40,422 nucleotides of DNA. Origin: a virus. A model generated the notes under the pieces. The model ran no database searches. It was not told the DNA's origin and saw only the letters and a program-made list of their open reading frames with translations. A program made the translations under genes and the position numbers. The stretch spans positions 1 through 40,422 of the IMG/VR virus record IMGVR_UViG_3300043119_000835; one strand, 5' to 3'. Below are positions 12,171 through 37,616 of the stretch, piece by piece; the first letter of the stretch is position 1, and each line of letters starts with the position of its first letter.

Positions 12171-12444
12171 GAAGCCTACGGAAGCACGAACACAGGAGCT
12201 GATGCTGCTGGAGCGTATGGACGCCAAACTTGATGCACTGGATAAGCGTATGGATGGCATGGACAGGCGTGCGGCCAGTGCCGGGGCAGTGGCAGGAGGT
12301 GTTGCCGGCGGTATTACCGGCGCCCTTGTGGCTTCCAGTATCGCCTACATTAAAGCAACACTTGGATGGCATTCAAGAGGTCGTGGGTTCAATTCCCTCC
12401 AGCTCCACCAAGAATTTCTAAGGCTTACAAGTTTTGACTTGTAA
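12160..12444 (+). CDS. Small coiled-coil/glycine-rich membrane protein, 3' end replaced by tRNA-Ala sequence
   Basis: 94 residues. The N-terminal coil repeats the ERMDAKLD motif of the previous gene at both protein and DNA level, suggesting a small duplication. Next come a glycine-rich hydrophobic segment (SAGAVAGGVAGGITGALVAS, about 40-59) and IAYIKATLG. From residue 68 on, the frame runs through the 3' half of a tRNA-Ala and its terminator (codons from 12361), so about 27 C-terminal residues are not original protein sequence. The natural end was lost at, or close to, an attachment-site junction. In related phages this gene is followed by the small terminase gene, which here lies 25 kb away. 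Confidence 0.7.
   Translation: MHDEKPTEARTQELMLLERMDAKLDALDKRMDGMDRRAASAGAVAGGVAGGITGALVASSIAYIKATLGWHSRGRGFNSLQLHQEFLRLTSFDL
12361..12410 (+). other. 3' half of tRNA-Ala(GGC), likely attachment-site remnant
   Basis: These 50 nt correspond exactly to tRNA positions 27-76. The anticodon stem is CTTGG/TCAAG with loop ATGGCAT (anticodon GGC), the variable loop AGGTC, a T-arm with loop TTCAATT, the acceptor strand CAGCTCC, then ACCA. The pattern matches bacterial tRNA-Ala(GGC), for example E. coli alaW. No D-arm or 5' acceptor strand precedes it; instead there is a phage reading frame. A half starting at the anticodon stem is what tyrosine-integrase elements leave at their distal junction (attR). 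The T-stem carries one T-T mismatch. Confidence 0.85.
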
Positions 12445-12453
12445 GCCTTTTTT
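12420..12453 (+). terminator. Terminator following the tRNA-Ala half
   Basis: A perfect 12-bp stem, AAGGCTTACAAG (12420-12431) with CTTGTAAGCCTT (12438-12449), has a 6-nt loop and a T6 run. It stands 9 bp after the CCA end, as a native tRNA terminator does. It also closes the lysis operon read from the left. Confidence 0.9.
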
Positions 12454-12457
12454 CGTG

Positions 12458-12477
12458 TGGATAACCGTTTGGATAAC
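12458..12477 (+). repeat. Direct repeat TGGATAAC x2 beside the tRNA half
   Basis: TGGATAAC occurs at 12458-12465 and 12470-12477 (12-bp period). Short direct repeats at one helical turn beside an att core are typical arm-type binding sites for tyrosine integrases. The segment 12454-12575 holds no gene; apart from this repeat I see nothing in it except the expected right end of the Mu-like phage, which I cannot delimit. Confidence 0.45.
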
Positions 12478-12575
12478 ATTTCCGGTTAGCCAGGATTTGC
12501 GAGATTCCGTTGGGAATGTAAGGCGGCGCGGGATTTGGCACTTCGTGGGGATGGATTCGGCATAGGTTTGTCGGG

Positions 12576-12845: not shown

Positions 12846-12847
12846 AA

Positions 12848-13879
12848 TCACCTCGTTGCCGGCAGGATGATCTGCCTTTGAATGGTGGATGCTGTATGCA
12901 GCCTGTGCAGCGGGCGGGCGGTGTAAATGCGCTGCCGGGGCGGCACGGGCATCTTGGCATGGCCGGCATACGCCAGCAGGCGGGCAAGACACAGGGCCGA
13001 GGATGTTCCTGCCAGCTTTTTGTGCGCCCGGGCAGTAATGCGGACTGCGCCGCTGTTAACGGCAAGGGCGGCGGTCTGTTTTGTGCCTGTTGTCTGTGCT
13101 GTGGGCGTGTGGCGGATATGGCCGGTACAGCCTGACAGCGCCATTTTATTGCCGCTGGCCGGATCTGTTCCGCAGGCGGCGACATGCGATGCCGCTGTGC
13201 CGTTTTTACAGGCTGTTGTCTGCTGGTATGGCACACGCGCGCCGCCGGTAAGGCCGTGGGCGCCGCGCCGGCCGGATGCCAGACACACAAGACGGGCGAT
13301 ACCGGCCGCGGTGCCGGAGGCTCCTGCGCCGGTCGAAAGGTCGGCAAAGGAATAGCTGCCGAACAGAATCCCGCTTTGCTGTTTGTCCCATGCCGTTGAC
13401 CATGTCCCCATACAGGCATGGCCCTGTCTGTATTTTGTCAGCGTAACCGGCCCGATGACCGGTTCTCCATTGCGGTACACCGTGAACTGCTCACCCTCTG
13501 CCCGGACAGCCAGAGTCTCTGAATCTCCAACGGCTAGGTCGCGGGTAAACGTCCCGTATGTCGTATAATCCTGCACCAGCTTGATCTCGCCGGCCTTTAT
13601 GTAAATGCGGACACACGCGTATTTGTTGTCCGGAGCGTCCTGCCGTGCCATCAACACCAGAGTGTTATCCGTCAGATCGTCACGCCGCGTAACCGTGACG
13701 ATCTGCTCGGTATCGGTGTACTGCCGGTCGGAGTGACTCATGCCCACGGTCATGCCATAGGCATAGCCATCCCCTGTCAGCCGGTACTTGTAGTCGCCGT
13801 AGGCAATGACCGTATGCCAGCCCAGACTTTCCAGCGTGGTGCCCGCCGCCCCTGTGAAGGGTGTGTAAAAATCAGCCAT
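12848..13879 (-). CDS. Virion-associated fibre/spike protein
   Basis: 343 residues. The N-terminal 190 residues look like a concanavalin/LamG-type beta sandwich (ESLGWHTVIAYGDYKYRLTG, ARQDAPDNKYACVRIYIKAG, FTVYRNGEPVIGPVTLTKYR), often used for receptor or glycan binding. The C-terminal part is Ala/Thr/Gly-rich with many Cys and His and no known domain. Its ATG overlaps the end of the small gene upstream by 8 bp. Position at the end of the tail fibre operon suggests an accessory fibre or decoration protein; receptor binding is inference. Confidence 0.7.
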   Translation of the reverse strand: MADFYTPFTGAAGTTLESLGWHTVIAYGDYKYRLTGDGYAYGMTVGMSHSDRQYTDTEQIVTVTRRDDLTDNTLVLMARQDAPDNKYACVRIYIKAGEIKLVQDYTTYGTFTRDLAVGDSETLAVRAEGEQFTVYRNGEPVIGPVTLTKYRQGHACMGTWSTAWDKQQSGILFGSYSFADLSTGAGASGTAAGIARLVCLASGRRGAHGLTGGARVPYQQTTACKNGTAASHVAACGTDPASGNKMALSGCTGHIRHTPTAQTTGTKQTAALAVNSGAVRITARAHKKLAGTSSALCLARLLAYAGHAKMPVPPRQRIYTARPLHRLHTASTIQRQIILPATR

Positions 13880-14069
13880 CGGTCGGGACCTCTGTACAGC
13901 CGGCGGCCAGCAGCGCGGCGTGCTGCTGCGGGCTGACCTGCGGACAGGCTACCAGCGCGGTACCGTCGGGCAGCAGGCGTACCACCCACCACCAGGCCAC
14001 ACAGCCGGCCGCCGCAGGCCGCTGGTCCGTTGTTTCTGCACCTATGATCGGGCAACGGTATTGTTTCAT
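13872..14069 (-). CDS. Small hypothetical tail-operon protein (65 aa)
   Basis: 65 residues with MKQYRCPIIG at the start and CVAWWWVVRLLPDGTALVAC in the middle, a pattern of a short beta-hairpin protein with a DGTALV turn. It overlaps the next gene by 8 bp, indicating coupling. The sequence resembles the short N-terminal domains of tail-fibre assembly proteins (PQQHAALLAAG), but the family is not certain. Confidence 0.6.
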   Translation of the reverse strand: MKQYRCPIIGAETTDQRPAAAGCVAWWWVVRLLPDGTALVACPQVSPQQHAALLAAGCTEVPTDG

Positions 14070-14078
14070 CGCCGCAGC

Positions 14079-14654
14079 CTATTCCAGCGCCAGCACCGCG
14101 CCGGTAAGCTGGTAGGTACCGGCGTTGTTGTATATCTCCGGCACGATGCGGGTCACACGGGCCACCCCGTCTGCGGTGATATCCACGGCGGCGCCGCCAG
14201 CGGCTGCCGCCACTCTGAAGGTGTCGCCCGCTACATCGCGCACATGATAGATAACGCCTGTCTGCAGCCCCGCAGGCGGTTCTCCGCTGAACACCACGGT
14301 ATATCCGTCTGCGAAGCCGTGGTTTTCACAGGTGACGATATCTGTTGCGGGGTCGGTGATGGCCGCTCTGGGCGCTTCGCCCCCCAGCGGTGTGACCGCA
14401 ACGCAGCTTCCGTCCGCCTTGCGCCACGACAACCAGGCCACTGTGGCGCCGGAGGGAACTTCAAACGTGACGGGGGCTGAAAGAGTGCGGGCGCGGGCGG
14501 AAGCTGCCTGCAGTGCCACGGGCCTGCGGGCATAGTTTCCGCCGGAAAGCTCCGCATCTGCCCCGTCGGCTCCCGGATAGGCCGCATGCAGAGCTGCATA
14601 CGCTATGTCCAGCGCATCAAGCATGGTATGTGCCGCTGTATCAGTAAACATCAT
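14079..14654 (-). CDS. Hypothetical tail-region structural protein
   Basis: 191 residues from ATG 14654 (MMFTDTAAHT; a second ATG at 14651 has better spacing to AGGAG). It is beta-rich with segments SAPVTFEVPSGATVAWLSWR and GYTVVFSGEPPAGLQTGVIY, reminiscent of tandem Ig-like or fibre shaft modules. No family recognised. A 9-bp gap separates it from the next gene and its start overlaps the TraR-like gene by 14 bp. Confidence 0.65.
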   Translation of the reverse strand: MMFTDTAAHTMLDALDIAYAALHAAYPGADGADAELSGGNYARRPVALQAASARARTLSAPVTFEVPSGATVAWLSWRKADGSCVAVTPLGGEAPRAAITDPATDIVTCENHGFADGYTVVFSGEPPAGLQTGVIYHVRDVAGDTFRVAAAAGGAAVDITADGVARVTRIVPEIYNNAGTYQLTGAVLALE

Positions 14655-14874
14655 GTCGCTCCTGCCGGCCGGCGCAGTCCACACACAAAGAAACACCGGC
14701 CACGGCGGCCAGTCGTGCCGCCGGAATAGGTTCACCGCATTCCCGGCAGCAGGCTATGCCGTCAATGATCTGCGGTCCGCCGGCGGAACGTAATGTCCCG
14801 GAACGGGCACGGGCTATGGCGGCCTCGCGCTGCAAACGTTCCACCTCGGCTGCCATATCAAGAATATCTGTCAT
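14641..14874 (-). CDS. TraR/DksA-type zinc-finger protein
   Basis: 77 residues. An N-terminal helix (MAAEVERLQREAAIARARSG) is followed by CRECGEPIPAARL and CVDC, the C4 zinc finger of the TraR/DksA family. TraR-like proteins bind the RNA polymerase secondary channel and change promoter choice without DNA binding. Its usual place in Mu-like phages is near the lysis genes, so a copy inside the tail-fibre operon is unusual, although known in some prophages. One base separates it from the fibre-assembly gene and it overlaps the next gene by 14 bp. Confidence 0.85.
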   Translation of the reverse strand: MTDILDMAAEVERLQREAAIARARSGTLRSAGGPQIIDGIACCRECGEPIPAARLAAVAGVSLCVDCAGRQERHDVY

Positions 14875-15453
14875 CTACGCATCCTCCGGCAACGTGTAGA
14901 CGGGGTTGATGCCCTGTATGGTATCTGCCGCCTGCGCATCGTCCAGCCCCTGTGTTGCTTCCAGCGCATCCTGATAGGCAAGGCGCTGGCCTACCACATG
15001 GCCGGATACGGCAACCCATGCGGTGCGGTTGGCAAGGATACGGGCGGCAAGCTCACCCACGGGCATGCCCCGCGTGGCGGCAATGGCCCGCACCAGCGGG
15101 GCCGGTGCGTCCGCATCCGCCTGCAGGGCTTCGGCCTCTGCCGCCTGCTGGTCCCATGTCTGGCGTTCCAGCGGAGCGTATTCCGCGGCCAGCGCGGTCA
15201 GCATGGCTTCGGCCCCGTCGCGGATTTCCGCCTGTTTAGCCGTGTACAGTTCTGCGCGGGTAGGCGCAGGCGGTGCGGCGGGTGTTATGGCCACGGGACA
15301 GCCGTTTTCATCGGGCCGGATTATCTGCCCCCGCGCCTGTGCGGCCAGCAGTGTGGCATGGTCTTCGGGACTGACGGCCACGGCATCGGCGGGGATGCTG
15401 TTGCCGTGTATGTCGGGGTGATAAAAGCCGTTTGTTGAAGGGCTGTATTTCAT
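14875..15453 (-). CDS. Tail fibre assembly protein
   Basis: 192 residues. The N-terminus (MKYSPSTNGFYHPDIHG, then AVAVSPEDHATLLAAQARG) is the common start of caudovirus tail-fibre assembly chaperones. The C-terminal half (ELYTAKQAEIRDGAEAMLTA, LERQTWDQQAAEAEAL, LAARILANRTAWVAVSGHVV) is a DUF4376-like helical domain that usually pairs with a fibre. AAGGAGG precedes the ATG. It follows the fibre gene directly, as Mu gene U follows S. Confidence 0.85.
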   Translation of the reverse strand: MKYSPSTNGFYHPDIHGNSIPADAVAVSPEDHATLLAAQARGQIIRPDENGCPVAITPAAPPAPTRAELYTAKQAEIRDGAEAMLTALAAEYAPLERQTWDQQAAEAEALQADADAPAPLVRAIAATRGMPVGELAARILANRTAWVAVSGHVVGQRLAYQDALEATQGLDDAQAADTIQGINPVYTLPEDA

Positions 15454-15465
15454 TGTGCGGCCTCC

Positions 15466-16893
15466 TTAGTAGCCGATGGAAATGTATGAATATGGCATTA
15501 CAGTTGAACCGGAGTGTTCTCCCTTCAGGGTGAACTTGCCTGCCATCCTGTTGTATACAGCGATGGCGTCGTTGCCGACAGAACCGTAGTCAATGCCGAT
15601 AACAGCAACGCAAGAAAGATGCGCGTTCGGGTAGGCAATCGGCAGCGTTACCTCTGTGGCGACTCCAGTTGATACAGAACCGGTGCCCCACTGCAGAATC
15701 AGCCCGCTGGGCAGCCGTTGCCAGCCGCTTTCGCCCAGACTCTGCGTCCACTCGCTGCGGTCAACCTTGTTGCCGTTAATGGCGCTGACCTGTGCGGCAA
15801 GAGCCTGCATGTCCACCTGTGCGGTATTTACAGCCACATCAAAGGCTTTGATGCAGGGCAGCAGATAACTGGTTTTCGGGCGGTTTTCTTCGGCTGTGGG
15901 GACTACGCGGGAAGCGTCGAAAATGACGCGGTCAGCCCCTACATATACATTCTGGACGATGTTCTCCACACGTCCCGTAAGGTCCTCTTGGTGCACCAGA
16001 AATGCGCCGGAGGCGCCTGCCGTGTCTCTGAGGCTGGGTAACAGCGCATTGGGGGATGTGCTGGACTTCAGCTCACCCGTAATGTTCCGTATGGCATCAC
16101 CGGCCCAGTCGCCTGCCGCTTTACCTGCCGCACCATTCTGCGCGGCCGAGAAGTAGTGTCTGTAGCAAGGCAGAATGATATGCGTATCCGTCAGGCAGTA
16201 CTTGCCGCAGGAGCCTTCCTGTGCGGCGGCTTCTGCGTCCCATTCCGCCTCTGTGGCCAGATAGCCCCCGCAGCTGCGCACCCATGCTGTCAACTGAGGG
16301 TACACCTCCAATGCGAATTTCTGCTTTACGTTTACAGGAACGGTGCCGGGCAGCGGTGTGCCGGTGGTGGAAAACAGCAACGTGCCTACGGGCATACCGC
16401 CTTCGCCGGAGCCTACCACCCGCCAGTCGCTCCACTGGCCGGTGGAGGTACGGCGGCGGTTCCAGCCGGGGTGGTCAGGGTCGTCAGCAGGCCAGCACAC
16501 CTGTGTGCGTCCGGCATCGGCAGGCAGAACCATGGTATGCACAAAAGCCCACGTACCCGCAGGCAGCTCCGGTGCATTCTGCACTTTGGCCCGGTCACAG
16601 GCGTACAGACTGTTATGGGCGATGGTGTTCAGGTCACCTTCAAATGACGCATGCTGCCCTCCGGCGGAAAATCCCCTGAAACGCTCCGGTCCCAGTTTGA
16701 GAATGGCTTCTTTCAGCTGTGCGTTATCCGCTTTTTCCGGCTGTATGCCCGCCTCTGCCAGTACATTCAGAATTTCATCCTGCACGGCATTCAGCCAGTC
16801 GGCGCTGACCACGGTGGCAGGTTCCGGTATGGTGGGGTTACCTTCGGTAAAGCGCCCCTCCGCGGTGGCACCTTGTGAATCAATCCGGTGCAT
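15466..16893 (-). CDS. Tail fibre protein
   Basis: 475 residues. The N-terminal 70 residues (MHRIDSQGAT, EGRFTEGNPTIPEPATVVSA, DWLNAVQDEILNVLAEAGI) are the conserved baseplate-attachment segment of many prophage fibres. A collar-like region (MPVGTLLFSTTGTPLPGTVP) and a shaft follow. The last 80 residues (ESGWQRLPSGLILQWG, VTLPIAYPNAHLSCVAVIG) are a receptor-binding tip of gp53-like fold. Its start overlaps gp48 by 14 bp. The protein determines host range. Confidence 0.9.
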   Translation of the reverse strand: MHRIDSQGATAEGRFTEGNPTIPEPATVVSADWLNAVQDEILNVLAEAGIQPEKADNAQLKEAILKLGPERFRGFSAGGQHASFEGDLNTIAHNSLYACDRAKVQNAPELPAGTWAFVHTMVLPADAGRTQVCWPADDPDHPGWNRRRTSTGQWSDWRVVGSGEGGMPVGTLLFSTTGTPLPGTVPVNVKQKFALEVYPQLTAWVRSCGGYLATEAEWDAEAAAQEGSCGKYCLTDTHIILPCYRHYFSAAQNGAAGKAAGDWAGDAIRNITGELKSSTSPNALLPSLRDTAGASGAFLVHQEDLTGRVENIVQNVYVGADRVIFDASRVVPTAEENRPKTSYLLPCIKAFDVAVNTAQVDMQALAAQVSAINGNKVDRSEWTQSLGESGWQRLPSGLILQWGTGSVSTGVATEVTLPIAYPNAHLSCVAVIGIDYGSVGNDAIAVYNRMAGKFTLKGEHSGSTVMPYSYISIGY

Positions 16894-17461
16894 TGGTTCC
16901 TCCGTATGAAAAAAGGACTTCGGTATGGGCCGGTTTCAGCCTGCGGAAGACACATTCCAGCAGATGATCGCCCCATGAGGACAGGGTTTCGCCCGCGGCG
17001 CTGCGTCCGGCGCTGAAGCGGCGTTCGGTAATGGCAGGTGCGGCTACCCCCCATGCCCATTGCCAGTCGCCGTTGGTCAGCATGTCCCCCGCATGTGAAC
17101 CGGCGCAGAACGGCGGGTATTCGTGCACCACCACTCTGTAGCCAAGCAGCATGGCAAGGCGCGTAAACCATGCCCGCGACAGGCCGGCCTGTTCCTGCAC
17201 GGCTATGGCCAATGCCATGATGCGTTCCTGCAGCGTGGTATCAGGATGGGAACAGGCATCGGGCAGGCCGTAAACACGCTCCCAGTCCGGCAGCCATTCC
17301 TGTGCGCGGAACGGGTCTATGCCCATGACGGCACGTACAGAAGCGGCCAGCGCGGCATCAAGGGCGTTGCCTTCTGCGTGCAGCTGCGCCCGCAGGCGCG
17401 GGGCTTCCGCGCTGTAGCTGGTGGGGGGCAGCAGGTGTTGCAACAACCGGATATGGCCCAT
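16880..17461 (-). CDS. Baseplate protein gp48-like (DUF2313/YmfQ)
   Basis: 193 residues matching the YmfQ/DUF2313 family: HLLPPTSYSAEAPRLRAQLH, FRAQEWLPDWERVYGLPDAC, then a helical middle and a C-terminal CVFRRLKPAHTEVLFSYG. It is a wedge component that links baseplate J to the fibres. The ATG starts immediately after the stop of gp47 (TAAATG). Confidence 0.92.
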   Translation of the reverse strand: MGHIRLLQHLLPPTSYSAEAPRLRAQLHAEGNALDAALAASVRAVMGIDPFRAQEWLPDWERVYGLPDACSHPDTTLQERIMALAIAVQEQAGLSRAWFTRLAMLLGYRVVVHEYPPFCAGSHAGDMLTNGDWQWAWGVAAPAITERRFSAGRSAAGETLSSWGDHLLECVFRRLKPAHTEVLFSYGGTNAPD

Positions 17462-18523
17462 TTACATGGCCTCCAGCGTCACCTGCCCCGGTCTGGGCCA
17501 TTGCAGGCGGGTGGCATCCACCACGGCCTGCACGTTAGCGGCGGGGGTTATCAGCTGTCTGTCCTGCACGCCTGCCATGCCGGATATGAGCGCCTCCAGA
17601 TGGGAACGCACCACAAGGTCGCCCGGCAGCAGTGCGGCGAAAAATACGGCAAGCGACTGCTGAAGCTGCGCCGTTACCACGGGCAGGGTGGTGCCCTGCA
17701 GCCGCACGGCGGCGTGCACGTCTATCATCAGCGGCTGCGGGGCCAGCACGGTGACGCCGGCGGCCGTAACAGGGCGCTGTGCATCAATATGCGCCTGAAC
17801 CGCCGTTACCAGCTCTGCAGCGGGCAAACCGTCGGCGGACAGCACCGCCACGTCCACTGTGCCGAGGCCGCGGCGCAGGGGATACACAAAAGCCGCGGTA
17901 ACGCCGGGCACCTCCAGCGCCCAGCGCTGATAATCGTAGCGGTTGCCGCCGCCCGGCGGAGTACGCATATGCAGCAGCAGACGCTCCAGCAGCTGGGCGT
18001 CGCTTTCGGCATCGGTGCCGCCGGCAAGGGACAGCTGTGCGCCGGAAAGTATGCCGGATGGCGCATTGACCAGCGTTACCGGCTCTGCCGTGTAATCCGG
18101 CAGGGCCTTGGCCGTTACGGCCCGGCAGGGCACGGCCGCGGTGCCGGTTTCATCCAGCACAGCCGCCGCCGTGGTGGCAAATTGTTCTCCTGATGCGGGG
18201 TGTGCGGCACGGATGCCTGCCGCTGCGGGTGTCTGCGGTGCACCGTGCAGCGTCAGGGTGCCTGTGGCTCTGGTAGCCGGTTTGCGGGTGATGCCGCGCA
18301 GGCCGCAATGAATTTCAAGGTATTCGGTATCCGCCGTGTCCGGCAGAATCTGGCGGGCAATCCACAGCTGGTGCTGGTACAACCCTTCGATGGCCGATGC
18401 CGTGGCACTGGCCCGCACGTAGTTGTCGCTGTCGGGCAACGTCGCGGCATCGGGTTGCAGGTTTTGCGTATCGCGCAGAATACCCTGACGGATAGCGGCG
18501 AAGTCTGGCGTGATATACGGCAT
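17462..18523 (-). CDS. Baseplate J-like protein (gp47)
   Basis: 353 residues from ATG 18523, chosen because CAGGA lies at good spacing and MPYITPDFAAIRQGILRDTQ is the family N-terminus. The body contains LYQHQLWIARQILPDTADTE-YLE, GITRKPATRATGTLTLHG, ESDAQLLERLL and PPGGGNRYDYQRWALEVPGV, all signature segments of the baseplate J family. It forms the wedge ring of the contractile tail. It lies 20 bp after gp46. Confidence 0.93.
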   Translation of the reverse strand: MPYITPDFAAIRQGILRDTQNLQPDAATLPDSDNYVRASATASAIEGLYQHQLWIARQILPDTADTEYLEIHCGLRGITRKPATRATGTLTLHGAPQTPAAAGIRAAHPASGEQFATTAAAVLDETGTAAVPCRAVTAKALPDYTAEPVTLVNAPSGILSGAQLSLAGGTDAESDAQLLERLLLHMRTPPGGGNRYDYQRWALEVPGVTAAFVYPLRRGLGTVDVAVLSADGLPAAELVTAVQAHIDAQRPVTAAGVTVLAPQPLMIDVHAAVRLQGTTLPVVTAQLQQSLAVFFAALLPGDLVVRSHLEALISGMAGVQDRQLITPAANVQAVVDATRLQWPRPGQVTLEAM

Positions 18524-18542
18524 GGCGAATCCTGTAATCTGT

Positions 18543-18899
18543 TCAGATAACACGAACAGGGTATTGGAAAGTCTGTTGATTACCGGTTGAATCAGTGGCA
18601 CAGATAATCAACAGGCATACACCGTTATGCGGCTGCATGGCCGTCACCTGTATGGACTGCGCTCTGCCTGCCTCAACCAACGGGGCCAATGCCTGCTGGG
18701 CATATTGCTGTGCAAGGGTACGGATGCGGGGCAGGTCTTTTTCGCGCGCTATTTCGTGCAGGCGCGAACCTACCGTGGGGTCTGCCCACCATGTGCCCAG
18801 AGGCGTCATGATGCGCAGATAGATGGCGTTGCCCAGATGGCTGATGCGCTCTCCGGTGTAGTCGCCTGTATATGGATTTAACCCTGCATCGTTTCCCAT
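18543..18899 (-). CDS. Baseplate protein gp46-like
   Basis: 118 residues from ATG 18899 (MGNDAGLNPYTGDY). The segments LGNAIYLRIMTPLGTWWADP and VGSRLHEIAREKDLPR are those of the GP46/W-like wedge protein. No ribosome site precedes this ATG; instead the predicted late transcript start falls on its first base, so translation may be leaderless. A longer frame beginning at 19001 would run through the promoter and hairpin and into the divergent gene, and is rejected. First gene of the distal baseplate-fibre operon. Confidence 0.88.
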   Translation of the reverse strand: MGNDAGLNPYTGDYTGERISHLGNAIYLRIMTPLGTWWADPTVGSRLHEIAREKDLPRIRTLAQQYAQQALAPLVEAGRAQSIQVTAMQPHNGVCLLIICATDSTGNQQTFQYPVRVI

Positions 18900-18905
18900 G
18901 CCGCC

Positions 18906-18949
18906 ACTGTAGTGGCGGCTGAGATACAGGACAGGTGGAAGGGGTTCAG
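18906..18949 (-). promoter_or_regulatory. Late promoter of the gp46-fibre operon
   Basis: The 23-bp element (18927-18949, read leftward CTGAACCCCTTC...GTCCTG) is identical to that of the lysis promoter. After 15 bp comes TACAGT (18911-18906), a -10 with four of six consensus bases. It sits inside an 8-bp inverted repeat, CCGCCACT (18901-18908) with AGTGGCGG (18911-18918). Six bases after the -10 is the A of the gp46 start codon. Corresponds in position to the Mu late promoter in the tail region. Confidence 0.72.
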
Positions 18950-18960
18950 GAGGAGTACCA

Positions 18961-19629
18961 GTGACATCCAAAACAGAAATAATTGAAAATGTAGATGACA
19001 AAAAAATTTATTGTACAAGATGTGATGGATATCGTCACTGTAAAGTGCTTGGCGCTGTCGAGCATAGTTATGATAACTATGAAGAGTATGAATACAGGTG
19101 TGGGGTTGATGGATGGGACAAATACTACATCGTTGAATGTAATGGATGTGGATACATATTTTTTGCAATAGAATCTTACTTTTCTGAAAAAGAATATCAT
19201 GAAGAAAATAAAATTGATGTAGCTATTTATCCAAAAAACAAATTTAAACCTAAAAGTTGTATTGAAGAAGTACTATGGTCTGAATCATCAGGCACATTAT
19301 ACAATGAAATATACTCAGGACTAAACAATGGGCTTTATTCAATTGTAATTATGGGATTAAGGACTTTCACTGAACAGTTTATGGTTCACGTGAACAAAGA
19401 AGATAAAAAGAATTTTCAAGAAAACATCAAAAATAGTATAAAAAAAAATATTTTTACACAAGATCAGGCGAATTATCTTATTGATGTTACAAAATTTGGA
19501 AACGATGTTGTTCACAGAAAAAGTCAGCCAAATGAAAAGCAAGTCATAATTGCTCTGGATATTGTCGAGAGTGCAATTGAAATATCTCTCGTCAATAAAA
19601 CAAAGGCTAACACTTTAAAAAAATTATAA
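18961..19629 (+). CDS. DUF4145-like accessory gene (moron)
   Basis: 222 residues from GTG 18961, with AGGAGG 7 nt upstream. It runs against all surrounding genes and is strikingly AT-rich, with Lys/Asn/Ile-heavy coding, so it was acquired separately. An N-terminal CTRC-x(n)-CNGC zinc-ribbon-like part (residues about 19-64) is followed by a helical domain, NGLYSIVIMGLRTFTEQFMV, and a terminal LIDVTKFGNDVVHRKSQP, the GN(D/x)xxH pattern of DUF4145. Such domains occur alone or in restriction-type defence proteins; a lysogenic-conversion or defence role is inference. It fills the gap between gp45 and the late promoter of gp46. Its 5' end lies 11 bp from the promoter's activator element. Confidence 0.75.
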   Translation: MTSKTEIIENVDDKKIYCTRCDGYRHCKVLGAVEHSYDNYEEYEYRCGVDGWDKYYIVECNGCGYIFFAIESYFSEKEYHEENKIDVAIYPKNKFKPKSCIEEVLWSESSGTLYNEIYSGLNNGLYSIVIMGLRTFTEQFMVHVNKEDKKNFQENIKNSIKKNIFTQDQANYLIDVTKFGNDVVHRKSQPNEKQVIIALDIVESAIEISLVNKTKANTLKKL

Positions 19630-19630
19630 G

Positions 19631-20257
19631 CTACTCAGGCTCCCCACTAGTCCCGCCGGAATCCCCCTGATGGCGGTGATGCCTCTGGCTTATGCCACCG
19701 GCGACATGATCTCCCTGCGAGGTTATGTCGCCGGTTGTGTTTATGTGGGCATTTATGCTGGCCTGCGCCTGTTCACCGTCCATGCCGCCGAAGGCCAGCG
19801 TGGGGCTGGCAAAGGTTGCGCCCTCAGTCGCCGTGGCCTGCCATGACTTTGTCTGCATGGTGATGCTTTGGGCCGCATTGATGCGGAAGTGGTCGCAGTC
19901 GGCTTCTATTATACGGTCTTTCTTCAGATGGATGCGCGCCCCCCACTGGTTGTAGATGCAGGCCTCGCCCTGTGCAACGTCCATGCGGTAGTTGCCGTGT
20001 TCTGTGGCCACAATAACGCTGTGGGCGGTACGACCGCCCAGAGGCAGGACAATCAGCTGGGTGCCTTCCGGCGGAGCGCTGGTAAACCCGAAATGCTGAA
20101 ACAGCTCTGCCGCCTGCAGGCGTTCACCCGCCAGCGCATCGGCCTGCACCAGCTGAACACGCGGGGCGGTGTCCAAGCCGGTAAGCCGCGCCCTGAAGGC
20201 AAGGCGTATGGTGGAAAGCGCCCGCGCCACTGCCTGCTGAACCTGTCGCATTACCAT
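19631..20257 (-). CDS. Baseplate assembly/spike protein gp45-like
   Basis: 208 residues from ATG 20257 (MVMRQ; 20251 also possible). LFQHFGFTSAPPEGTQLIVLP and GGRTAHSVIVATEHGNYRMD are characteristic of the Mu gp45/V OB-fold hub. The C-terminus is a beta-helix-like stretch ending in HRHQGDSGGTSGEPE, where His residues suggest metal binding at a membrane-piercing tip. It overlaps gp44 by 7 bp. It ends 2 bp from the divergent accessory gene. Confidence 0.9.
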   Translation of the reverse strand: MVMRQVQQAVARALSTIRLAFRARLTGLDTAPRVQLVQADALAGERLQAAELFQHFGFTSAPPEGTQLIVLPLGGRTAHSVIVATEHGNYRMDVAQGEACIYNQWGARIHLKKDRIIEADCDHFRINAAQSITMQTKSWQATATEGATFASPTLAFGGMDGEQAQASINAHINTTGDITSQGDHVAGGISQRHHRHQGDSGGTSGEPE

Positions 20258-22726: not shown

Positions 22727-22735
22727 AACCGCCTC

Positions 22736-26436: not shown

Positions 26437-26450
26437 CGAGGAATTATCGC

Positions 26451-28068: not shown

Positions 28069-28071
28069 GGT

Positions 28072-28680: not shown

Positions 28681-28696
28681 GGTTGCTCCTGTAGCG

Positions 28697-29394: not shown

Positions 29395-29402
29395 GTGTCC
29401 TC

Positions 29403-30332: not shown

Positions 30333-30334
30333 GG

Positions 30335-31567
30335 CTAGTTTCCTTTACCGCTTTTTGCGGCGTGGTATTCCTCGGGCGTAATCCCGAGCTGGTTGATGAC
30401 GTAATCTTCTTCTGCCGTCAGGGCCGCGCTGGAGTCCTGCGTACCGGCGGGCGGTACGCCGCCGGTCTGCATGGCCCCAAGGGCCGCCACAGGCACGGCG
30501 CTGCTCAGGAAGGTACGCAGTGTGTCGGGGGCATCCTTGGCCAGGCCGCGTGCCCAGCCCTCCACAGCCTTGTTCAGCCTTCCGTCGCTGAGCGCGGCGT
30601 CGATTTCCGCATTCAGCGCGTTCTCAATGCTGCTGGTTTCAAGCTCGGCAACACGGTTTTTCAATGCCGCGTTGGCCTGCTGCAATGCGGTGAGGGCCGC
30701 TACGGGTGCAAACCTGGCAGGGTCAGGGGTTGCGGCCTGCTGCGTCAGCGCCGCAATCTGGCTGTCTTTGTGCTGCAACACGTCCAGCAGGCTTACGGGG
30801 GTGCCCCCGGGCTGGTCCGACGCTGCTGCCGCATCGCTTGCCCCCAGCATGTCTTTGAGCTTGTCCAGCTGCGCCGTGATGTCGGCTGCTGTTGCCGTTA
30901 CCGGCAAGTTGAGCATCCAGCGCAGGCGTTCCAGTAGTTCATCCATGGTTGTCTCCTGTTCTGTTGTCTGTGCGGCCTGTACGTGCGCAGAGGCCGCGTG
31001 CACATTGCCCAGCGCCAGCGCCACGGCGTCTAAGCCGTCCAGCGCGGGGGTGTTGGTCAGGGCCGCGTTGATCAGCGCCAGCACGGCGCCGGTTTCGGGA
31101 TCAAAAGAAAAGTACGGGGATATGTATTTGTATTCGCCGGCATCAATGTAGCCGCGCGCCTTATCCGTCCAGCTGACGGAGGCGAACAGACCTTTGCCGG
31201 CCACATAGACAAGCCGCTGCAGCCAGCCGGAAGCGGGCGCGGGCTGCCCGTTGGCACGGGCGTTCAGAGACTGATGCTCGTAATCTATGACAATGGGTGT
31301 TTCGCGGGCCTCTGCGGCTGCGATGATGGCTTCGGCAATGGAGGCATCCATCTGCCAGTGGGTGAGCCTGCCTTCTGTAATGGTGGCAGGGCGGCCGTCA
31401 CGCGCGGCAAAGCGGCCTTCCGGAAACAACTGGATGTTGCAGCCCGCCGGCAGCTCTTTTTGCGATAGCATTTCCGGCAGATCAGAGTGCCCGGCACCGC
31501 CTTGTGACAGCGGCACCGCAAGACTGGCGGCAGGGTATGCGGTATGTCTGGTGGATAAATGCGTCAT
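30335..31567 (-). CDS. I: Protease I with C-terminal scaffold (Z-like)
   Basis: 410 residues from ATG 31567 (MTHLSTRHTA); a GTG at 31588 is in frame but lies inside the promoter hairpin. Residues about 50-150 (GRPATITEGRLTHWQMDASI, IAAAEARETPIVIDYEHQS, GQPAPASGWLQRLVYV) form the Mu-like capsid protease, with His in DYEHQ and a Ser in the following strand as likely catalytic residues. The C-terminal half is a coiled scaffold (LTALQQANAALKNRVAELET), probably also made separately from an internal start, as Mu Z. No ribosome site precedes the ATG; late RNA may start on it. Confidence 0.9.
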   Translation of the reverse strand: MTHLSTRHTAYPAASLAVPLSQGGAGHSDLPEMLSQKELPAGCNIQLFPEGRFAARDGRPATITEGRLTHWQMDASIAEAIIAAAEARETPIVIDYEHQSLNARANGQPAPASGWLQRLVYVAGKGLFASVSWTDKARGYIDAGEYKYISPYFSFDPETGAVLALINAALTNTPALDGLDAVALALGNVHAASAHVQAAQTTEQETTMDELLERLRWMLNLPVTATAADITAQLDKLKDMLGASDAAAASDQPGGTPVSLLDVLQHKDSQIAALTQQAATPDPARFAPVAALTALQQANAALKNRVAELETSSIENALNAEIDAALSDGRLNKAVEGWARGLAKDAPDTLRTFLSSAVPVAALGAMQTGGVPPAGTQDSSAALTAEEDYVINQLGITPEEYHAAKSGKGN

Positions 31568-31573
31568 GCCCCC

Positions 31574-31618
31574 GATATACGGGGGCACGGATGGTCAGGA
31601 CAGGTGGAAGGGGTTCAG
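31574..31618 (-). promoter_or_regulatory. Late promoter of the protease-head operon (PI-like)
   Basis: The 23-bp element (31618-31596 leftward) is identical to the lysis and gp46 copies. A -10, TATATC (31579-31574), or GTATAT one base earlier, follows. The -10 is the loop of TGCCCCC (31567-31573) with GGGGGCA (31581-31587). Six bases after the -10 comes the A of the gene I start codon, as at gp46. Mu has its PI late promoter at the same place. Confidence 0.75.
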
Positions 31619-31738
31619 AAGGTAGGAGTACTTTCTTTGTCGCTGGATAATCCCTTGGCAAAGGGCGTTAGCCCTGCGTTAGATTTTGCGAAGCCGCCTG
31701 TTTGCAGACCGATGTCCGCAAGCGGCAATATCTTCGCT
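31619..31738. other. Intergenic spacer between gpG and the late promoter
   Basis: No gene. On the minus strand it holds GGGCTAACGCCC and CCCTTTGCCAAGGG-type short hairpins about 31655-31680, which may end transcription of the terminase-portal-F-gpG operon. Confidence 0.4.
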
Positions 31739-32230
31739 CTAATCGCCGCCAAGTGCTTTTCGTACATTGTCACGAAGCACTCCCATAATTTCTTCTTCAT
31801 CATCCGGCCCGATACCCAGAAACGGGCGGGGCACAACTGTGCCCCATGGTATAGGACCGCCGCGCCCGGTGCGGCCATGGGCACCGCGCAGAGCGCCGAA
31901 CTGGTGCGTACGGGCGTGGGGTTCGTTGGTGCCTGCCACGGCGAAGTCCGGGCCGTACGCTGTCTGGATGCTGGCTGCCAGCAGGCCCCGCACCTGCAGG
32001 ATGGGGCTGTCTTCATGTCCTGTTTTTGCGCGTTGGCCTATGGTGACCGGCGAAAGCGGATGCCATGCTTCGCCGCTGACGGGGTCGCGTTCTTCTGCAA
32101 AGGCCCGTTCCGAGGCGTCTGCCAGAATGCCGGCCAGCTGCATGGTAACGGGACTCATGTCGCGGCCCAGGTCTGCCAGTCTGGCGAGCTGCTTTTCTAA
32201 CGCGTCCAGATTGACCGTGATTTCAATCAT
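31739..32230 (-). CDS. G: Virion morphogenesis protein gpG-like
   Basis: 163 residues. IEITVNLDALEKQLARLADL, EAWHPLSPVTIGQRAKTGH, LLAASIQTAYGPDFAVAGTN and PWGTVVPRPFLGIGPDDEEE are the tail-completion/virion-morphogenesis (gpS/gpG) pattern. It acts at head-tail joining. It follows gene F after a 136-bp gap that contains CCGCGTTTGCGGG-type inverted repeats but no ORF. Confidence 0.92.
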   Translation of the reverse strand: MIEITVNLDALEKQLARLADLGRDMSPVTMQLAGILADASERAFAEERDPVSGEAWHPLSPVTIGQRAKTGHEDSPILQVRGLLAASIQTAYGPDFAVAGTNEPHARTHQFGALRGAHGRTGRGGPIPWGTVVPRPFLGIGPDDEEEIMGVLRDNVRKALGGD

Positions 32231-32366
32231 GGCTATTCTCCCCTATACAGATGAGCGGATGTGACACGGTGATATTCTGCCTGCCGTAGCACGGGCTTTT
32301 TTGTCCGGAGCGCTTTGTGGGGTTTCCGCGTTTGCGGGTGGCAGGCCCCACCGTCCGCTCCCTTTT

Positions 32367-33641
32367 TTACCTGCCTTCTTTCCCGCCCTTATCCTTTGCC
32401 CGCAGCTGCCGGATAATGCGCTGCCTGCCTGCGTCATCGGCGCTCAGCCGCCAGAAGCTGACCACATACAGCTCGTCTTTTTTGCGGGTGGCTTTGACCA
32501 CTGTTACATACCCTTGCGGGTCATCCATAAAGAACAGCAGTTTCTGCGGATTTTGCCGGACAACTTCTCCCCGCTCCACCACATCCTGTATGCGGGCGTA
32601 ATCGGCCTGCTGCAGTTCCGGATGCTGACTACGCTGTTTTGCATATGTCTCAGATGAAAGCCGTGCAACCGTGGCGCCCGTATCCAGCTGTTCCGCGTGG
32701 TGCGGTGCCAGCTTTGCAACAGGAAAACTGCCCTGCGGCGCGGCCTGCCATTGCGCAAAAGCCGGTCCGGCTGTCAGGTGGCGCACTGTGGCGGCTGCTG
32801 CAGGGTGGCTGGCGGCTTCAAGCTTTTGCACTGCCTGTGCCAGCATATGTTCCATACCGGCGGCACCGGCGTTGTACGAAAAGCCTAAGTCTGTCCAGGC
32901 AACAGCTTCTTCGCCGCCTTTGCGGGTTGCCGTGCCGGGCAGGCGGTATCCTGTGACTTCGCGGTTATGTACCTCGCCGGTGCGGGAGTCTGTGACCTGC
33001 TGCTGTCTGGTGACCATACGGCCCGCGCTGCTTTCCACCTGCAGGCCCTCGCGCTGCAGGCGATGGCCGGACAACGTCCGCACGCGGCAACGGCACCCCC
33101 AGCCGTTAGGCGGGTAATGGCTGCCCCAAAAGGCATCATCATGGGCAAACACTCTGCCGTGCAGGGCGCTGTGCGCCGGGCGCGTTTTCGCATCCAGCAC
33201 CGCCACATACTGCCAGTACGGGCGGGCAGCAGCATTTTGCCGCTGCTGTCTGTACCGGCCGGCCATGTATGCTGTCTGTACATTCTGACGAAAGATAAGC
33301 CGCAGCCGTGCCGGACTGCCCATGCGCACGACACGCGGGGTACCGTCCGCGCCTTGTTCCAGCCGTTTGCCCCACCAGCCTTTTTTGCGCAATACGGGTT
33401 CCAGCTGCTGCATGAACCAGCGCTCGCTTTTGCCTTCGCGCAATTTTACCGCAAGGGCATTGCGTATATCTTCCAGCACATCCAGCTTTGCCACACCGGC
33501 CACGGTAAACGCACGGGCATGGGCCTGCTGCCACATCTCATGCCAGTTGGCAGTTACGGCATAGCCCTTTGATTCAAAGTAGGCGATGGCATCGGCGGGC
33601 GGCAGGCCGATGGCATAAGAAAGGTTCACAGGCTGCGGCAT
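32367..33641 (-). CDS. F: Minor head protein F with C-terminal PBECR2-like nuclease domain
   Basis: 424 residues from ATG 33641 (MPQPVNLSYAIGLPPADAIA), 1 bp after the portal stop. The Mu F-like head morphogenesis domain covers about 20-220 (ALAVKLREGKSERWFMQQLE, RLIFRQNVQTAYMAGRYRQQ, RPAHSALHGRVFAHDDAFWG, HYPPNGWGCRCRVR). Residues about 323-424 (LSSETYAKQRSQHPELQQAD, YARIQDVVERGEVV, YVTVVKATRKKDELYVVSFW) resemble the PBECR2 family, a predicted RelE/barnase/EndoU-fold RNase frequently fused to phage head proteins. An RNase packaged in the head and delivered at infection is a known hypothesis, not shown. Mu F itself lacks this part. Confidence 0.88.
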   Translation of the reverse strand: MPQPVNLSYAIGLPPADAIAYFESKGYAVTANWHEMWQQAHARAFTVAGVAKLDVLEDIRNALAVKLREGKSERWFMQQLEPVLRKKGWWGKRLEQGADGTPRVVRMGSPARLRLIFRQNVQTAYMAGRYRQQRQNAAARPYWQYVAVLDAKTRPAHSALHGRVFAHDDAFWGSHYPPNGWGCRCRVRTLSGHRLQREGLQVESSAGRMVTRQQQVTDSRTGEVHNREVTGYRLPGTATRKGGEEAVAWTDLGFSYNAGAAGMEHMLAQAVQKLEAASHPAAAATVRHLTAGPAFAQWQAAPQGSFPVAKLAPHHAEQLDTGATVARLSSETYAKQRSQHPELQQADYARIQDVVERGEVVRQNPQKLLFFMDDPQGYVTVVKATRKKDELYVVSFWRLSADDAGRQRIIRQLRAKDKGGKEGR

Positions 33642-33642
33642 A

Positions 33643-35244
33643 CTATGAGTCCGGACGCTGTTCGTCAGAGGCACTGAGGCTGCCCCACACTTCGGCCACA
33701 AACAAGGCCCGCGCCAGCAAGTCTTCCAGCTGCCCGCCGTCCATCTGCGGATACAGTTCCCCCAGTCTTCCGAGCAGATCAGCGGGGTCAGCTCCCTGCC
33801 GCACCTCATCCATCAAGGGGGCCAGCATGGCTTCCATAGCCTTATGCAGCTCTTTATCCGGCACGGGAACAGCGTCCACCGCAGTCTGGTCGGGGTAGGC
33901 ATCACCACCTGCCGGTGCTGCAACAGCAGACAACGCTGCCAGAGCTGCAGGCACTGCGGGGCTGGCTGCAGGCGCAACAGGCATAAGAATGTCTTCATCC
34001 TTGCCGGCCACAGGAATTTTAAGTTTTTCATGCACCCATGACGCCGGAATGCGCATGACCGCAGCGAGCTTCGGCAGCGCATCGGCATACTGGGTCAAGT
34101 CTTCTGCCTCACGCGTATCAAAGCGGAACCACGGCAGCAGACGCGGGTCGTTTACACCGCTGTTGAGGATGGCCAGCGGCGCCAGCACCTGACGCGTCAA
34201 CGTACCGGCCAGCTGCAGCGCATCGGAGATCAGCAGGTCATGCCTGATTTCGTTATGCACGTTGCCCAGGGCATTGGTGCTGGTTTTTCCGTCGGCCTGA
34301 CTGGTCAGCGTGCCCCCCAGAATGGCTTTGCTCATGCCGCGTTCGCAGCGGTCTGCCAGCGCCCCGAAATGATCATGGCTGCTGTTGGCCGGCGTTTCAA
34401 ACAGGATTTCCATCCCCTGAGGAATAATGCCGGAAGCATCGCGCCCCAGATACTGCAGCGCCCGACGCAAAGCGGCTTTATCTTCCTTGCTGCTGCCGGG
34501 GGGGTATTTGCCCAGGCGGAACGGCAGGCCATGCACGTCAACATATGCGGCATGGGCGGACAGTGCATATTCACGCAGCAGAAAGCTCCACGCCAGTACA
34601 CGGAACAGACCGGCACGGGGCAGCCAGCCGGAACGTGAACGGTGCACATGCAGCACCCAGCCGAAGGGGAGAAGCTCTGCGCCTTCTGATGTGCCATCAC
34701 GCAGCCGGAGGCTGTTCAAATTATTCGGGTGCGTCTGAAACCACGTCTGCGGGCGGAAATGAAAAGCCTGCGGCAGGTGCAGCGATCCTTCGCGGCCCCA
34801 TTCGATTTCAAGCGCGGCAAAGCCGTGGCCTATGGCGTCAGCCATATCCAGCATCAGGTCTTCCACATTGCTGAGGGCTTCAAACTGTTCTTTAACCGCT
34901 TCCGCTACCCGTTCCGCCTTGGCATCTCCTGCACGCCCCGGCTGAATGTCCCAGTCCAGCGTCAGGAGAGCGCGCTTGCGCTTGGACAACTCTGCCGCCA
35001 GATGGTCGCAACGGTCTTCCATATCGGCAAACAGTTTGTGCTGCTCCAGTATTTCACCTTCATCGGCCGACTGCAGTATGGTGCGCAGGCGTGCAGGCGT
35101 CAGCCCGTGTGTCAGGTTGGCCCATTTGTTCAGCACTTCCAGCGTGCCGACGGCGGAGTATCCATCGGTCTGCTGCAGCCCCTTGGCCAGTGCCGAACGC
35201 ACAAAGCCGCGTGCAGCTTGCATAAGGTCATTAAAAGAAACCAC
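33643..35244 (-). CDS. Portal protein (gp29, DUF935)
   Basis: 533 residues from GTG 35244, chosen because GAGGAGG is 7 nt upstream; an earlier ATG at 35304 lies within terminase and has no ribosome site. ADMEDRCDHLAAELSKRKRA, LLTLDWDIQPGRAGDAKAER, DAIGHGFAALEIEWGREGSL and GRDASGIIPQGMEILFETPA are typical of the Mu portal family. It forms the dodecameric ring through which DNA is packaged. The C-terminus is acidic and Ala/Pro-rich. Overlaps terminase by 14 bp. Confidence 0.93.
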   Translation of the reverse strand: MVSFNDLMQAARGFVRSALAKGLQQTDGYSAVGTLEVLNKWANLTHGLTPARLRTILQSADEGEILEQHKLFADMEDRCDHLAAELSKRKRALLTLDWDIQPGRAGDAKAERVAEAVKEQFEALSNVEDLMLDMADAIGHGFAALEIEWGREGSLHLPQAFHFRPQTWFQTHPNNLNSLRLRDGTSEGAELLPFGWVLHVHRSRSGWLPRAGLFRVLAWSFLLREYALSAHAAYVDVHGLPFRLGKYPPGSSKEDKAALRRALQYLGRDASGIIPQGMEILFETPANSSHDHFGALADRCERGMSKAILGGTLTSQADGKTSTNALGNVHNEIRHDLLISDALQLAGTLTRQVLAPLAILNSGVNDPRLLPWFRFDTREAEDLTQYADALPKLAAVMRIPASWVHEKLKIPVAGKDEDILMPVAPAASPAVPAALAALSAVAAPAGGDAYPDQTAVDAVPVPDKELHKAMEAMLAPLMDEVRQGADPADLLGRLGELYPQMDGGQLEDLLARALFVAEVWGSLSASDEQRPDS

Positions 35245-36895
35245 GGGAATCCTCCTCGATGTCAGACATTCCCCTGAAGGCATTCGCCTGCGGAACGGCT
35301 TCAAAAGCGTCCCTCAAGCTTACAAAACCGCCCGATGCCAGACGCCAGAGCATTTCAAGGGCATCCGGGCCGTCATCGTGATCTGCTTTGGGAAAGTGCC
35401 GTAACTGGTCAATCAGCGTATTCTGGCTGGAATGCACTCTGATGCGCCCCTGAGCCATATAGGGCTGCAGCGTTTCAATGCGCAGCAGTTTGTCGGTACT
35501 GTTGGTGATGGGCCGGACAGGCAGGGGAATCCCCCTTTCCGCTGCGCGCTGGGTCAGGACATGCGCAAAAAATTCCTGAAACTGCACAGCCTCTACCGCC
35601 CACATCAGGCAGCGGTACTGCAGATGAATGGCAATAATGTCTTCGATTATCCTGTCGGGATGCCGCTTGCGGATAAGGGCTTCCACCACATCCAGCGTCA
35701 TGCTGGCACGGTTGAATCCGCCTACCAGAATGGCCGATGGGTCACGGCCGGCACCATGCTTGCCCAGTGATGGGTCCACCGCGCCGAACAGCAGCCAGTC
35801 GCTGCGCCTGTCCACCCAGAAGGCAATACAGGCGGCAAAAGGGGCGCTGTCGGAAGAAAGCGGATCGTTCTGCTGTTCGGCATCAAAGGCGCTATGGTCT
35901 TCTGCCCGTTTGAGCATCAGCTTGTACAGCGGACGCATGGCCGGCCACGACACCACCGCACCGCGCTGCATGGCCTGTGTGTTCTCGTTGTAAAAACGGT
36001 CGGCGGACTCCTGACCTTCCGCCTGCAGCAGGTTTTCCCACTTGTCCCACAAGTCCATGCGTTCAGGCCAGGTGACGATGGCGCGAAAGGCTTTGGACCG
36101 CCACATGGGCTTTTTCATGGTGCGGGCAAGCACGCTGTCATAGTGCAGGATGGTACCCACATAGATAACATCCATGCTGTCGTCGGCTGGTCCCAGCGAT
36201 AAGACAGTACGCTGCAGCCAGCCCTGCAGCTTGTCGCGTTGCTCGGGTTTCTGTACGTTCTCGTCGTTTTCCAGATCGTCCAGAATGGCCAGATCAGGCC
36301 GGTACGGGCCATGACGCAGCCCGCGCATACGCTTGCCGGCGCCCAGAGCCTGCAGTTTGATATTACCGGCGGTTACTGTGGTCGCTTCGTTCCACACACG
36401 GCCGCGCCCGCAGGCCTCTGCAAAGTCCATGGCTAGCCGCGGATTCGCTTCCAGCTCAACCTTGACAGCTTCCAGCAGGGCGGCGGCCTGCGTCAGCGCG
36501 TCAGCTATCAACAAAATATAGTGCTTACGCTGGGTAACAACGCACCACAGTACAAAAAACAGCGCCACATAGGTGCTTTTCGCCTCGCCACGCGGTGCGG
36601 CAACTGCCAGTTTGATGCCGGTTACAGCCTCAATAATGGCGGGCAGCTCCGTATCCAGCCACTGGTGCAGCAACGAATCGCCGCCGTCAGAAGAAGTGCG
36701 CACGTAATGAGGAAAATACGTGCGCCTGAAAAAAACAAAATCGCCTTTGGCGCGTTCGCGGCGCTGCCTGCTGGCTTCGGGGTCCGCGGCAAAACCCTGA
36801 CAATCCGCCTCTATCTGCTGACGCAGTGTGGCAGACAGATCTGCTAATGCCTGCAGAAAATCTTTACGGCTCAGCTTTTCCTTCAAGCGTCCCAT
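35231..36895 (-). CDS. Terminase large subunit (gp28)
   Basis: 554 residues. Packaging ATPase and nuclease of the Mu type: FFRRTYFPHYVRTSSDGG, Walker A AAPRGEAKST (99-108), Walker B DLAILDDLEND (201-211), a coupling motif VGTILHYDS, and the RNase H-like nuclease with GAVDPSLGK and DHDDGPDALEML as the acidic clusters. It packages by headful with host DNA attached at both ends in Mu. Full-length and intact. It lies 8 bp after the small subunit gene. Confidence 0.95.
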   Translation of the reverse strand: MGRLKEKLSRKDFLQALADLSATLRQQIEADCQGFAADPEASRQRRERAKGDFVFFRRTYFPHYVRTSSDGGDSLLHQWLDTELPAIIEAVTGIKLAVAAPRGEAKSTYVALFFVLWCVVTQRKHYILLIADALTQAAALLEAVKVELEANPRLAMDFAEACGRGRVWNEATTVTAGNIKLQALGAGKRMRGLRHGPYRPDLAILDDLENDENVQKPEQRDKLQGWLQRTVLSLGPADDSMDVIYVGTILHYDSVLARTMKKPMWRSKAFRAIVTWPERMDLWDKWENLLQAEGQESADRFYNENTQAMQRGAVVSWPAMRPLYKLMLKRAEDHSAFDAEQQNDPLSSDSAPFAACIAFWVDRRSDWLLFGAVDPSLGKHGAGRDPSAILVGGFNRASMTLDVVEALIRKRHPDRIIEDIIAIHLQYRCLMWAVEAVQFQEFFAHVLTQRAAERGIPLPVRPITNSTDKLLRIETLQPYMAQGRIRVHSSQNTLIDQLRHFPKADHDDGPDALEMLWRLASGGFVSLRDAFEAVPQANAFRGMSDIEEDSRGFF

Positions 36896-36903
36896 GGCAA
36901 CCT

Positions 36904-37434
36904 CTACTTATTTCCTTTGCTGCCATAGTGTTGCGAGAGTACATGCCCGAACGGTTCCAGCACAGCCACCAGAGCCTCGCCCCTTTCCGGGAAGTGTTCG
37001 CGTACAAACTCTCCCAGCAGGGCCAGTACTTCCAAAGCGATGGCCAGTTCATTTGTTTCAGGCATAACCTTGCGGCAGGCGGATACGGTTTTGTTAAAGC
37101 TGTCGGCAAGGCTGGCCAGTATATCCGCCTTTTGTGCGGCGCTTAGCTCACTGTCCGTATCATCACGTAATTGATCTATTAATGCTTTGTGCTGCACCAG
37201 ATAGTCGGCAAGCATCTGGCGGGTGACACTTTCCACACCGCCGGTAGCGCCGGACATGAGGGCACAGGCAAGGCGGGCCTTGTCCCAGTCGTCGCCTTCG
37301 GCCTTGGCTTTACGCTTCCAGCGGGCGGCTGTGGAAGCAGGCACCCCGCCCGCAACTGCCGCACGCTCTAACGGCAGCTGGTCATAAATATAGGCGCTAC
37401 GCACCGCACGGCGCGTTTCTTCCGCGTGGGCCAT
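36904..37434 (-). CDS. Terminase small subunit (DUF1804)
   Basis: 176 residues. AEETRRAVRSAYIYDQLPLE, RAAVAGGVPASTAARWKRKA (a helix-turn-helix) and AEGDDWDKARLACALMSGAT are the DUF1804 pattern, the DNA-recognition subunit in this phage group. The start codon is not preceded by a ribosome site (ATGGTAACCC), and the gene that should lie upstream in this phage group is absent, which suggests that a junction lies within a few tens of bases of 37434. No late element is found upstream. Confidence 0.9.
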   Translation of the reverse strand: MAHAEETRRAVRSAYIYDQLPLERAAVAGGVPASTAARWKRKAKAEGDDWDKARLACALMSGATGGVESVTRQMLADYLVQHKALIDQLRDDTDSELSAAQKADILASLADSFNKTVSACRKVMPETNELAIALEVLALLGEFVREHFPERGEALVAVLEPFGHVLSQHYGSKGNK

Positions 37435-37616
37435 GGGTTACCATTCAATGGCCATGTGAACTCAGGTGATATCTAGAAAACAACATATTCCATAAAAAAA
37501 AGTGTATTAGACAAGTCACTCTTCACTATCCCAGCCTACACTTCACTCAGCTTCTCTTGCAAAACTGGCACAAAACTGGCACAGATTTTTTAGGCATATG
37601 TGCCTGGGAGGCTGTG
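37435..37616. other. Junction and integrase upstream region
   Basis: No gene. The end next to terminase contains ATTCAATGGCCAT (37443-37455), which, read on the minus strand (ATGGCCATTGAAT), resembles the anticodon-loop sequence ATGGCATTCAA of the tRNA-Ala half. The middle is AT-rich. The end next to the integrase has two adjacent copies of AAAACTGGCAC. I read the interval as one side of a rearranged attachment site; this is inference. Confidence 0.5.
37561..37582 (+). repeat. Tandem 11-bp direct repeat AAAACTGGCAC beside integrase
   Basis: AAAACTGGCAC at 37561-37571 and 37572-37582, followed by AG. Two perfect copies at one helical turn, 34 bp before the integrase start, fit arm-type integrase binding sites or an autoregulatory operator. 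Confidence 0.6.

Follow-up and report, generated by a model that had tools for sequence, protein, structure and literature searches.

The stretch of DNA analysed here (the window; a linear, assembled IMG/VR virus record of 40,422 bp) is one Mu-like (transposable) prophage, and it is nearly certain that the right 25.07 kb of this prophage have been inverted. The inversion was probably caused by a tyrosine integrase acting at a displaced tRNA-Ala attachment site, a reading to which we give a probability of about 0.83. The bounds first proposed for the inversion, 12361-37470, agree to about 26 bp with those found, a break at 12361 and an end of the segment near 37444-37448. The features of the window are given in Table 1.

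Table 1. Features of the window, in order of position.
Feature	Position	Strand	Remark
Flanking DNA left of the phage	1..362	+	End of a formyltransferase-like gene at 1-229; L004 diverges at 363
Left end of the Mu-like phage	363..387	+	TGT, TTTGGCAC at +17
CI-like repressor	597..1361	-	phrog_4, E 7.5e-52
Transposase A	2570..4801	+	phrog_310, E 1.7e-167
Transposition protein B	4817..5605	+	phrog_296, E 2.5e-54
Late transcriptional activator (Mor/C-like)	9322..9849	+	phrog_836, E 4.8e-39
Late element before the lysis genes	10103..10128	+	Identical to 31596-31621
Lysis genes (holin, endolysin, spanin), then a small gene (phrog_462)	10210..12170	+	
Small gene (phrog_1103)	12160..12444	+	Precedes terS in relatives
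Left junction	12362..12376	+	TTGGATGGCATTCAA; exchange within ATGG, 12366-12369
3' half of tRNA-Ala(GGC), anticodon loop to CCA	12366..12410	+	Displaced attachment half
Inverted segment	12366..37444 (about)		Contains the attachment half, the short flank, the right phage terminus and every virion gene
Terminator-like hairpin and short flank	12411..12516	+	GGGAA at 12512-12516 is the inverted right copy of the duplication
Right end of the Mu-like phage	12517..12541	+	Now oriented like the left end
Virion genes, tail fibre region to terS	12848..37434	-	Mutual order ancestral
Late element before the baseplate genes	18927..18952	-	One mismatch
Late element before protease and major capsid genes	31596..31621	-	
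terS (DUF1804)	36904..37434	-	Pfam PF08822, E 5.7e-60; phrog_756
Right junction	37441..37448	-	TTG-AATGG-TAACCC; exchange within ATGG (37441-37444)
Presumed terminal part of the integrase element, from the junction to the integrase	37449..37556		
Tyrosine integrase	37557..38780	+	R, HxxR and Y motifs; Pfam PF00589, E 4.4e-29; phrog_1, E 4.7e-59
Gene of the integrase element, low G+C	38784..40022	+	

Gene layout and uninverted relatives

The prophage carries transposase A and B, a Mor/C-type late activator and Mu-type head genes, as is expected of a Mu-like phage. The early and lysis genes were described to run rightward and the virion genes leftward, and this is the layout found, with 1605-12444 on the plus strand and the recognised virion genes, from 37434 down to 12848, all on the minus strand. 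The recognised virion genes have open frames almost identical to those of L004 (IMG/VR 2528311093_000006), a relative 99% identical to the window, which suggests that the inversion may be recent. Profile searches with the gene that follows the integrase (38784..40022) gave no match above the cut-off.

The ancestral join, held in the preliminary description to be broken, is that between the small gene at 12160 and terS. The two genes are parted in the window, and the comparison of gene order that had been proposed as a check finds terS adjacent to the small gene, in the uninverted order, in each of the four relatives in which both genes occur (L004, L005, L009 and L083 (L007)). In L004, window 12043-12369 is followed directly by the reversed sequence from 37448, with collinear head and tail genes thereafter; this relative is decayed and has lost an internal stretch reaching from transposase A to the gene ahead of the small one, which leaves the join untouched. 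In the more distant L005, L009 and L083 the small gene adjoins terS on a single strand. L005, a Mu-like prophage (IMG/VR 637000096_000008), has the gene content of the window and late elements at the same three places; unlike the window, it has all its modules on one strand. In the window the small gene has lost its stop codon beyond the crossover, and its frame continues through the tRNA half.

The three late elements, each of 26 bp, are nearly identical (CTTCTGAACCCCTTCCACCTGTCCTG) and are conserved in position in L005, with the core CTGAACCCCTTC. They are candidate promoters of the late activator, and by their places before the lysis, the protease and capsid, and the baseplate genes we take them to resemble Plys, PI and PP of Mu.

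Several other features were seen. The early region contains a type II hammerhead ribozyme at 8149-8212 (plus strand, 71 bits), which is kept in two copies in the L005 prophage (5408-5475 and 5721-5790). A cargo gene of low G+C, encoding a DUF4145 domain (E 8e-11), lies at 18961-19629 on the plus strand, opposing the baseplate operon; its place measures 683 bp in the window and only 262 bp in L004. At 8624-15367 of L083 (L007) the transposition block is opposite to the small gene, terS and terL, a change of orientation at a different place. The right end of the record, at about 40310-40422, looks by eye like the start of an IS21-type element with the repeated TGACCCAC, and such an element would account for the end of the contig at this point.

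Phage ends, tRNA-Ala half and junctions

The terminal signature, TGT with TTTGGCAC 17 bases on, occurs on either strand of the whole window only at 363 and 12517. The sequence at 363 begins TGTGGGGAG, and L004 departs from the window exactly at this base. In a normal insertion of a Mu-like phage the two termini face each other; here, both read on the plus strand. Judged by the relatives, the same-direction termini are the derived state, as a later inversion predicts. A short target duplication lies outside both ends, as in a Mu-like phage, and has the 5 bp known for Mu: TTCCC stands at 358-362 and GGGAA, which is its reverse complement, at 12512-12516. Since the two copies are mutually reversed, they point to a single insertion with the inversion afterwards, and because the right end was then turned together with adjacent DNA, two phages and an ancient gene order are excluded. 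The identical late elements on both sides had already been taken as a sign of one phage rather than two; they are present as claimed, and the inverted duplication, which gives one insertion, leads to the same result.

The tRNA-Ala attachment half noticed earlier at one break is borne out by a match of 47 of 49 bases between 12362-12410 and the 3' part of the complete tRNA-Ala(GGC) gene of the relative L088 (ARAGORN). One of the two differences lies at the crossover and is explained by the phage parent, which supplies that base. No complete tRNA is found in the window by ARAGORN, since the window has only the half from the anticodon loop on. This displaced 3' fragment starts at the crossover, and the other end of its element lies outside the record. 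The 3' end of a tmRNA was also considered for 12362-12410 (ending in CAGCTCCACCA, with a weak Rfam match below the cut-off) and was ruled out by the anticodon arm and the tRNA-Ala of L088.

Both junctions can be derived from two parents. The phage parent, represented by L004, reads CACTTGGATGGTAACCC (CACTTGG-ATGG-TAACCC), and the attR parent, taken from the tRNA-Ala gene of L088, reads CTTGAATGGCATTCAAG (CTTGA-ATGG-CATTCAAGAGG). The left junction is CACTTGG-ATGG-CATTCAAG, with G 12365 from the phage and C 12370 from the tRNA, and the right junction, reversed, is GGCCATTGA-ATGG-TAACCC, with the attachment-site base at 37445 and the phage base at 37440. The exchange is reciprocal, lossless and limited to ATGG, each junction having one flanking base from each parent. 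ATGG corresponds to tRNA positions 32-35, the 5' part of the anticodon loop of tRNA-Ala(GGC). The sequence common to the two sites comprises 8 positions, 7 of them identical, and apart from these 8 bp with one mismatch no matching inverted recombination sites are present at the two borders. A run of at least 4 identical bases at random point pairs has a probability of 0.015; the 4-bp match is weak alone, and it is its place that argues for an integrase.

The left junction is present in a second record, L075 (IMG/VR 3300043120_000147), which is identical to the window over 1-12516, a stretch of 12,516 bp. The two may come from the same or related samples and are thus perhaps not independent. 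L075 extends 1524 bp further left, with the remainder of the formyltransferase-like gene, and its left flank (153-1753) holds this gene together with an ATPase/GNAT-like gene (weak PADLOC match to mads_3). A scan of genome contigs gave one remote match to the formyltransferase, and this gene, with almost no relatives in genome records, is perhaps cargo of a further mobile element. L075 halts at its position 14040, equal to window 12516, exactly at the phage right end, where its assembly may have branched, for example at an empty site in the population.

Cause of the inversion

One breakpoint is of a known attachment-core kind, with the exchange in the anticodon loop, where tyrosine integrases usually cross over, and within palindromic arms. 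Anticodon-loop crossovers are one of the common kinds among 2083 mapped tRNA islands (PMC4383910), and the anticodon loop and stem fit the core-site layout of tyrosine integrases (PMC8371274). Beside the other break a complete tyrosine integrase had been reported, and its gene indeed encodes a full-length Phage_integrase domain with the R, HxxR and Y motifs and starts 109 bp from the right junction. On this reading, the displaced tRNA-Ala half would be the attR of an integrase-bearing element, and a Mu-like phage would have transposed to a point some 100 bp away from it, where the 5-bp duplication TTCCC arose. Later the attR core in the anticodon arm (TTGAATG-G-CATTCAA) would have been recombined with a partly similar secondary site of the phage, TTGGATGGTAACCC, between the small gene at 12160 and terS, by a tyrosine integrase that most likely came from the adjoining element. 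With the two sites facing each other, the intervening 25 kb would flip.

Recombination of the tRNA-Ala attachment half with a secondary site before the terminase, as proposed from the start, is strongly backed by the target duplication, the ancestral relatives, the reciprocal junctions and the anticodon-loop position. Counting against an integrase are the agreement of the phage site with the core at only 8 positions (7 identical) and its poor second half-site. The integrase relatives found are at most 31% identical over long alignments, too distant to show a tRNA-Ala target. Pattern searches of IMG/VR, from which the window's own record may have been left out, did not find the predicted uninverted attR (GGCCATTGAATGGCATTCAAGAGG) and gave 0 matches to the right junction and to the phage right end. 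Mu transposition was considered as a cause and rejected, neither breakpoint being at a phage terminus.

It is unlikely that the inversion, though real, arose by chance illegitimate recombination at the 4-bp microhomology, without an integrase. ATGG offers four identical bases, and a probability of 0.015 is not rare for a process that favours microhomology, but the place of the exchange, in the anticodon loop (7 bases) of the tRNA half, is an element boundary flanked by the palindromic arms of a core site, with an integrase at a distance of 109 bp, and the exchange is exactly reciprocal, with zero loss. That the assembly joined two prophages, or members of a mixed population, into a chimera is very improbable, since the repeats at the junctions, of 4 bp or, with one mismatch, 8 bp, fall well short of any assembly overlap, the two junctions are reciprocal, a single target duplication is common to both termini and the left junction is seen again in L075; on the other side, the window is an assembled record without reads for inspection, and the end of L075 exactly at the phage right end makes a graph branch there possible. 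Least credible of all is a lineage-specific gene order in which the virion module has this orientation with no recent inversion. The copies of the target duplication are mutually inverted, the segment includes the tRNA half and flank, which are DNA from outside the phage, and L004, at 99% identity, has the other order; independent insertions with the same divergent order and without the tRNA half are absent, even if Mu-like phages do vary in module orientation, as the transposition block of L083 (L007), opposed to the late genes, illustrates.

The preliminary description also raised a reversible switch, in which the integrase would flip the virion module both ways to turn particle production on and off. 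The left junction does rebuild a near-perfect core (TTGGATGGCATTCAA, 1 of 15 positions off), the recognised virion genes look intact, and reversal is chemically conceivable. This part of the proposal is nevertheless not supported and retains a very small probability: both copies known (the window and L075) share the inverted state, the only one found; the two sites, which share 8 bp with one mismatch, are very unequal and make a poor inverted pair; and the flipped segment includes the right transposition end, which is reversed with it. Four relatives retain the join, uninverted. Pattern searches did not find the uninverted form of this prophage, which is weak evidence as they covered assembled virus records only, and L004, which is a different insertion, gave the sole match to the uninverted join. 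The inverted state has the look of a defective dead end. That the integrase of the tRNA-Ala element habitually disarms by inversion Mu-like phages inserted beside it, via the gap before terS, as an element-against-phage defence or a slow switch, is quite improbable.

Consequences for the phage and known parallels

The two late elements inside the inverted segment still precede their genes. The genes terS, terL, portal, MuF and gpG, ancestrally downstream of the lysis element, are now severed from it. No late element precedes terS in the present arrangement, and a promoter scan, which is blind to Mu-type late promoters, gave no sigma-70-like promoter before it. Transcription of the lysis genes would now run antisense into the tail-fibre genes. 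The right end now points the same way as the left one, which is wrong for transposition and for being packaged together with the left end, and neither process is expected to work normally. To judge from this arrangement, the prophage is probably grounded, its virion production lost.

The G segment of Mu, about 3 kb of tail-fibre genes inverted by the serine invertase Gin between 34-bp inverted gix sites, is a host-range switch. It is alike in that DNA inside a Mu-type phage is flipped, late genes included. Unlike those of the G segment, the breakpoints of the window are without repeats of the 34-bp type, and there were 0 matches to an invertase among the proteins scanned. In HK022, integrase inversion between the attachment site and a secondary site inside the prophage locks the prophage (Dorgai, Oberto and Weisberg 1993, cited in PMC6379469; also PMC5495485). 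HK022 lysogens are alike in the tyrosine integrase, in the pairing of an attachment site with an inverted secondary site within the prophage, and in the locked outcome. There, the phage's own Int was shown to act, at a site in its own left operon, whereas in the window the integrase would be that of a neighbouring tRNA-Ala element and would have turned 25 kb of a transposable phage, its right end included. Large inversions in Thermococcus are attributed to the integrase of plasmid pTN3, likewise a tyrosine integrase that has tRNA sites and belongs to a mobile element (PMC5495485); these involve longer homologous segments and relaxed specificity, in contrast to the 8 bp shared in the window and an event beside the integrase. 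The window inversion is best read as being of the kind known from HK022.

The window gives an unusually clean natural footprint of the grounding of a temperate phage, all of it readable from sequence: an insertion duplication, a displaced tRNA half, reciprocal junctions and a near-identical uninverted relative. It suggests that the integrase of one mobile element can silence an unrelated transposable phage adjoining it. Such silencing would be a route to defective prophages that surveys of gene content would miss. Also, a divergent module order in virus records should be viewed with caution, since the cause can be a genuine inversion rather than a new type of phage.
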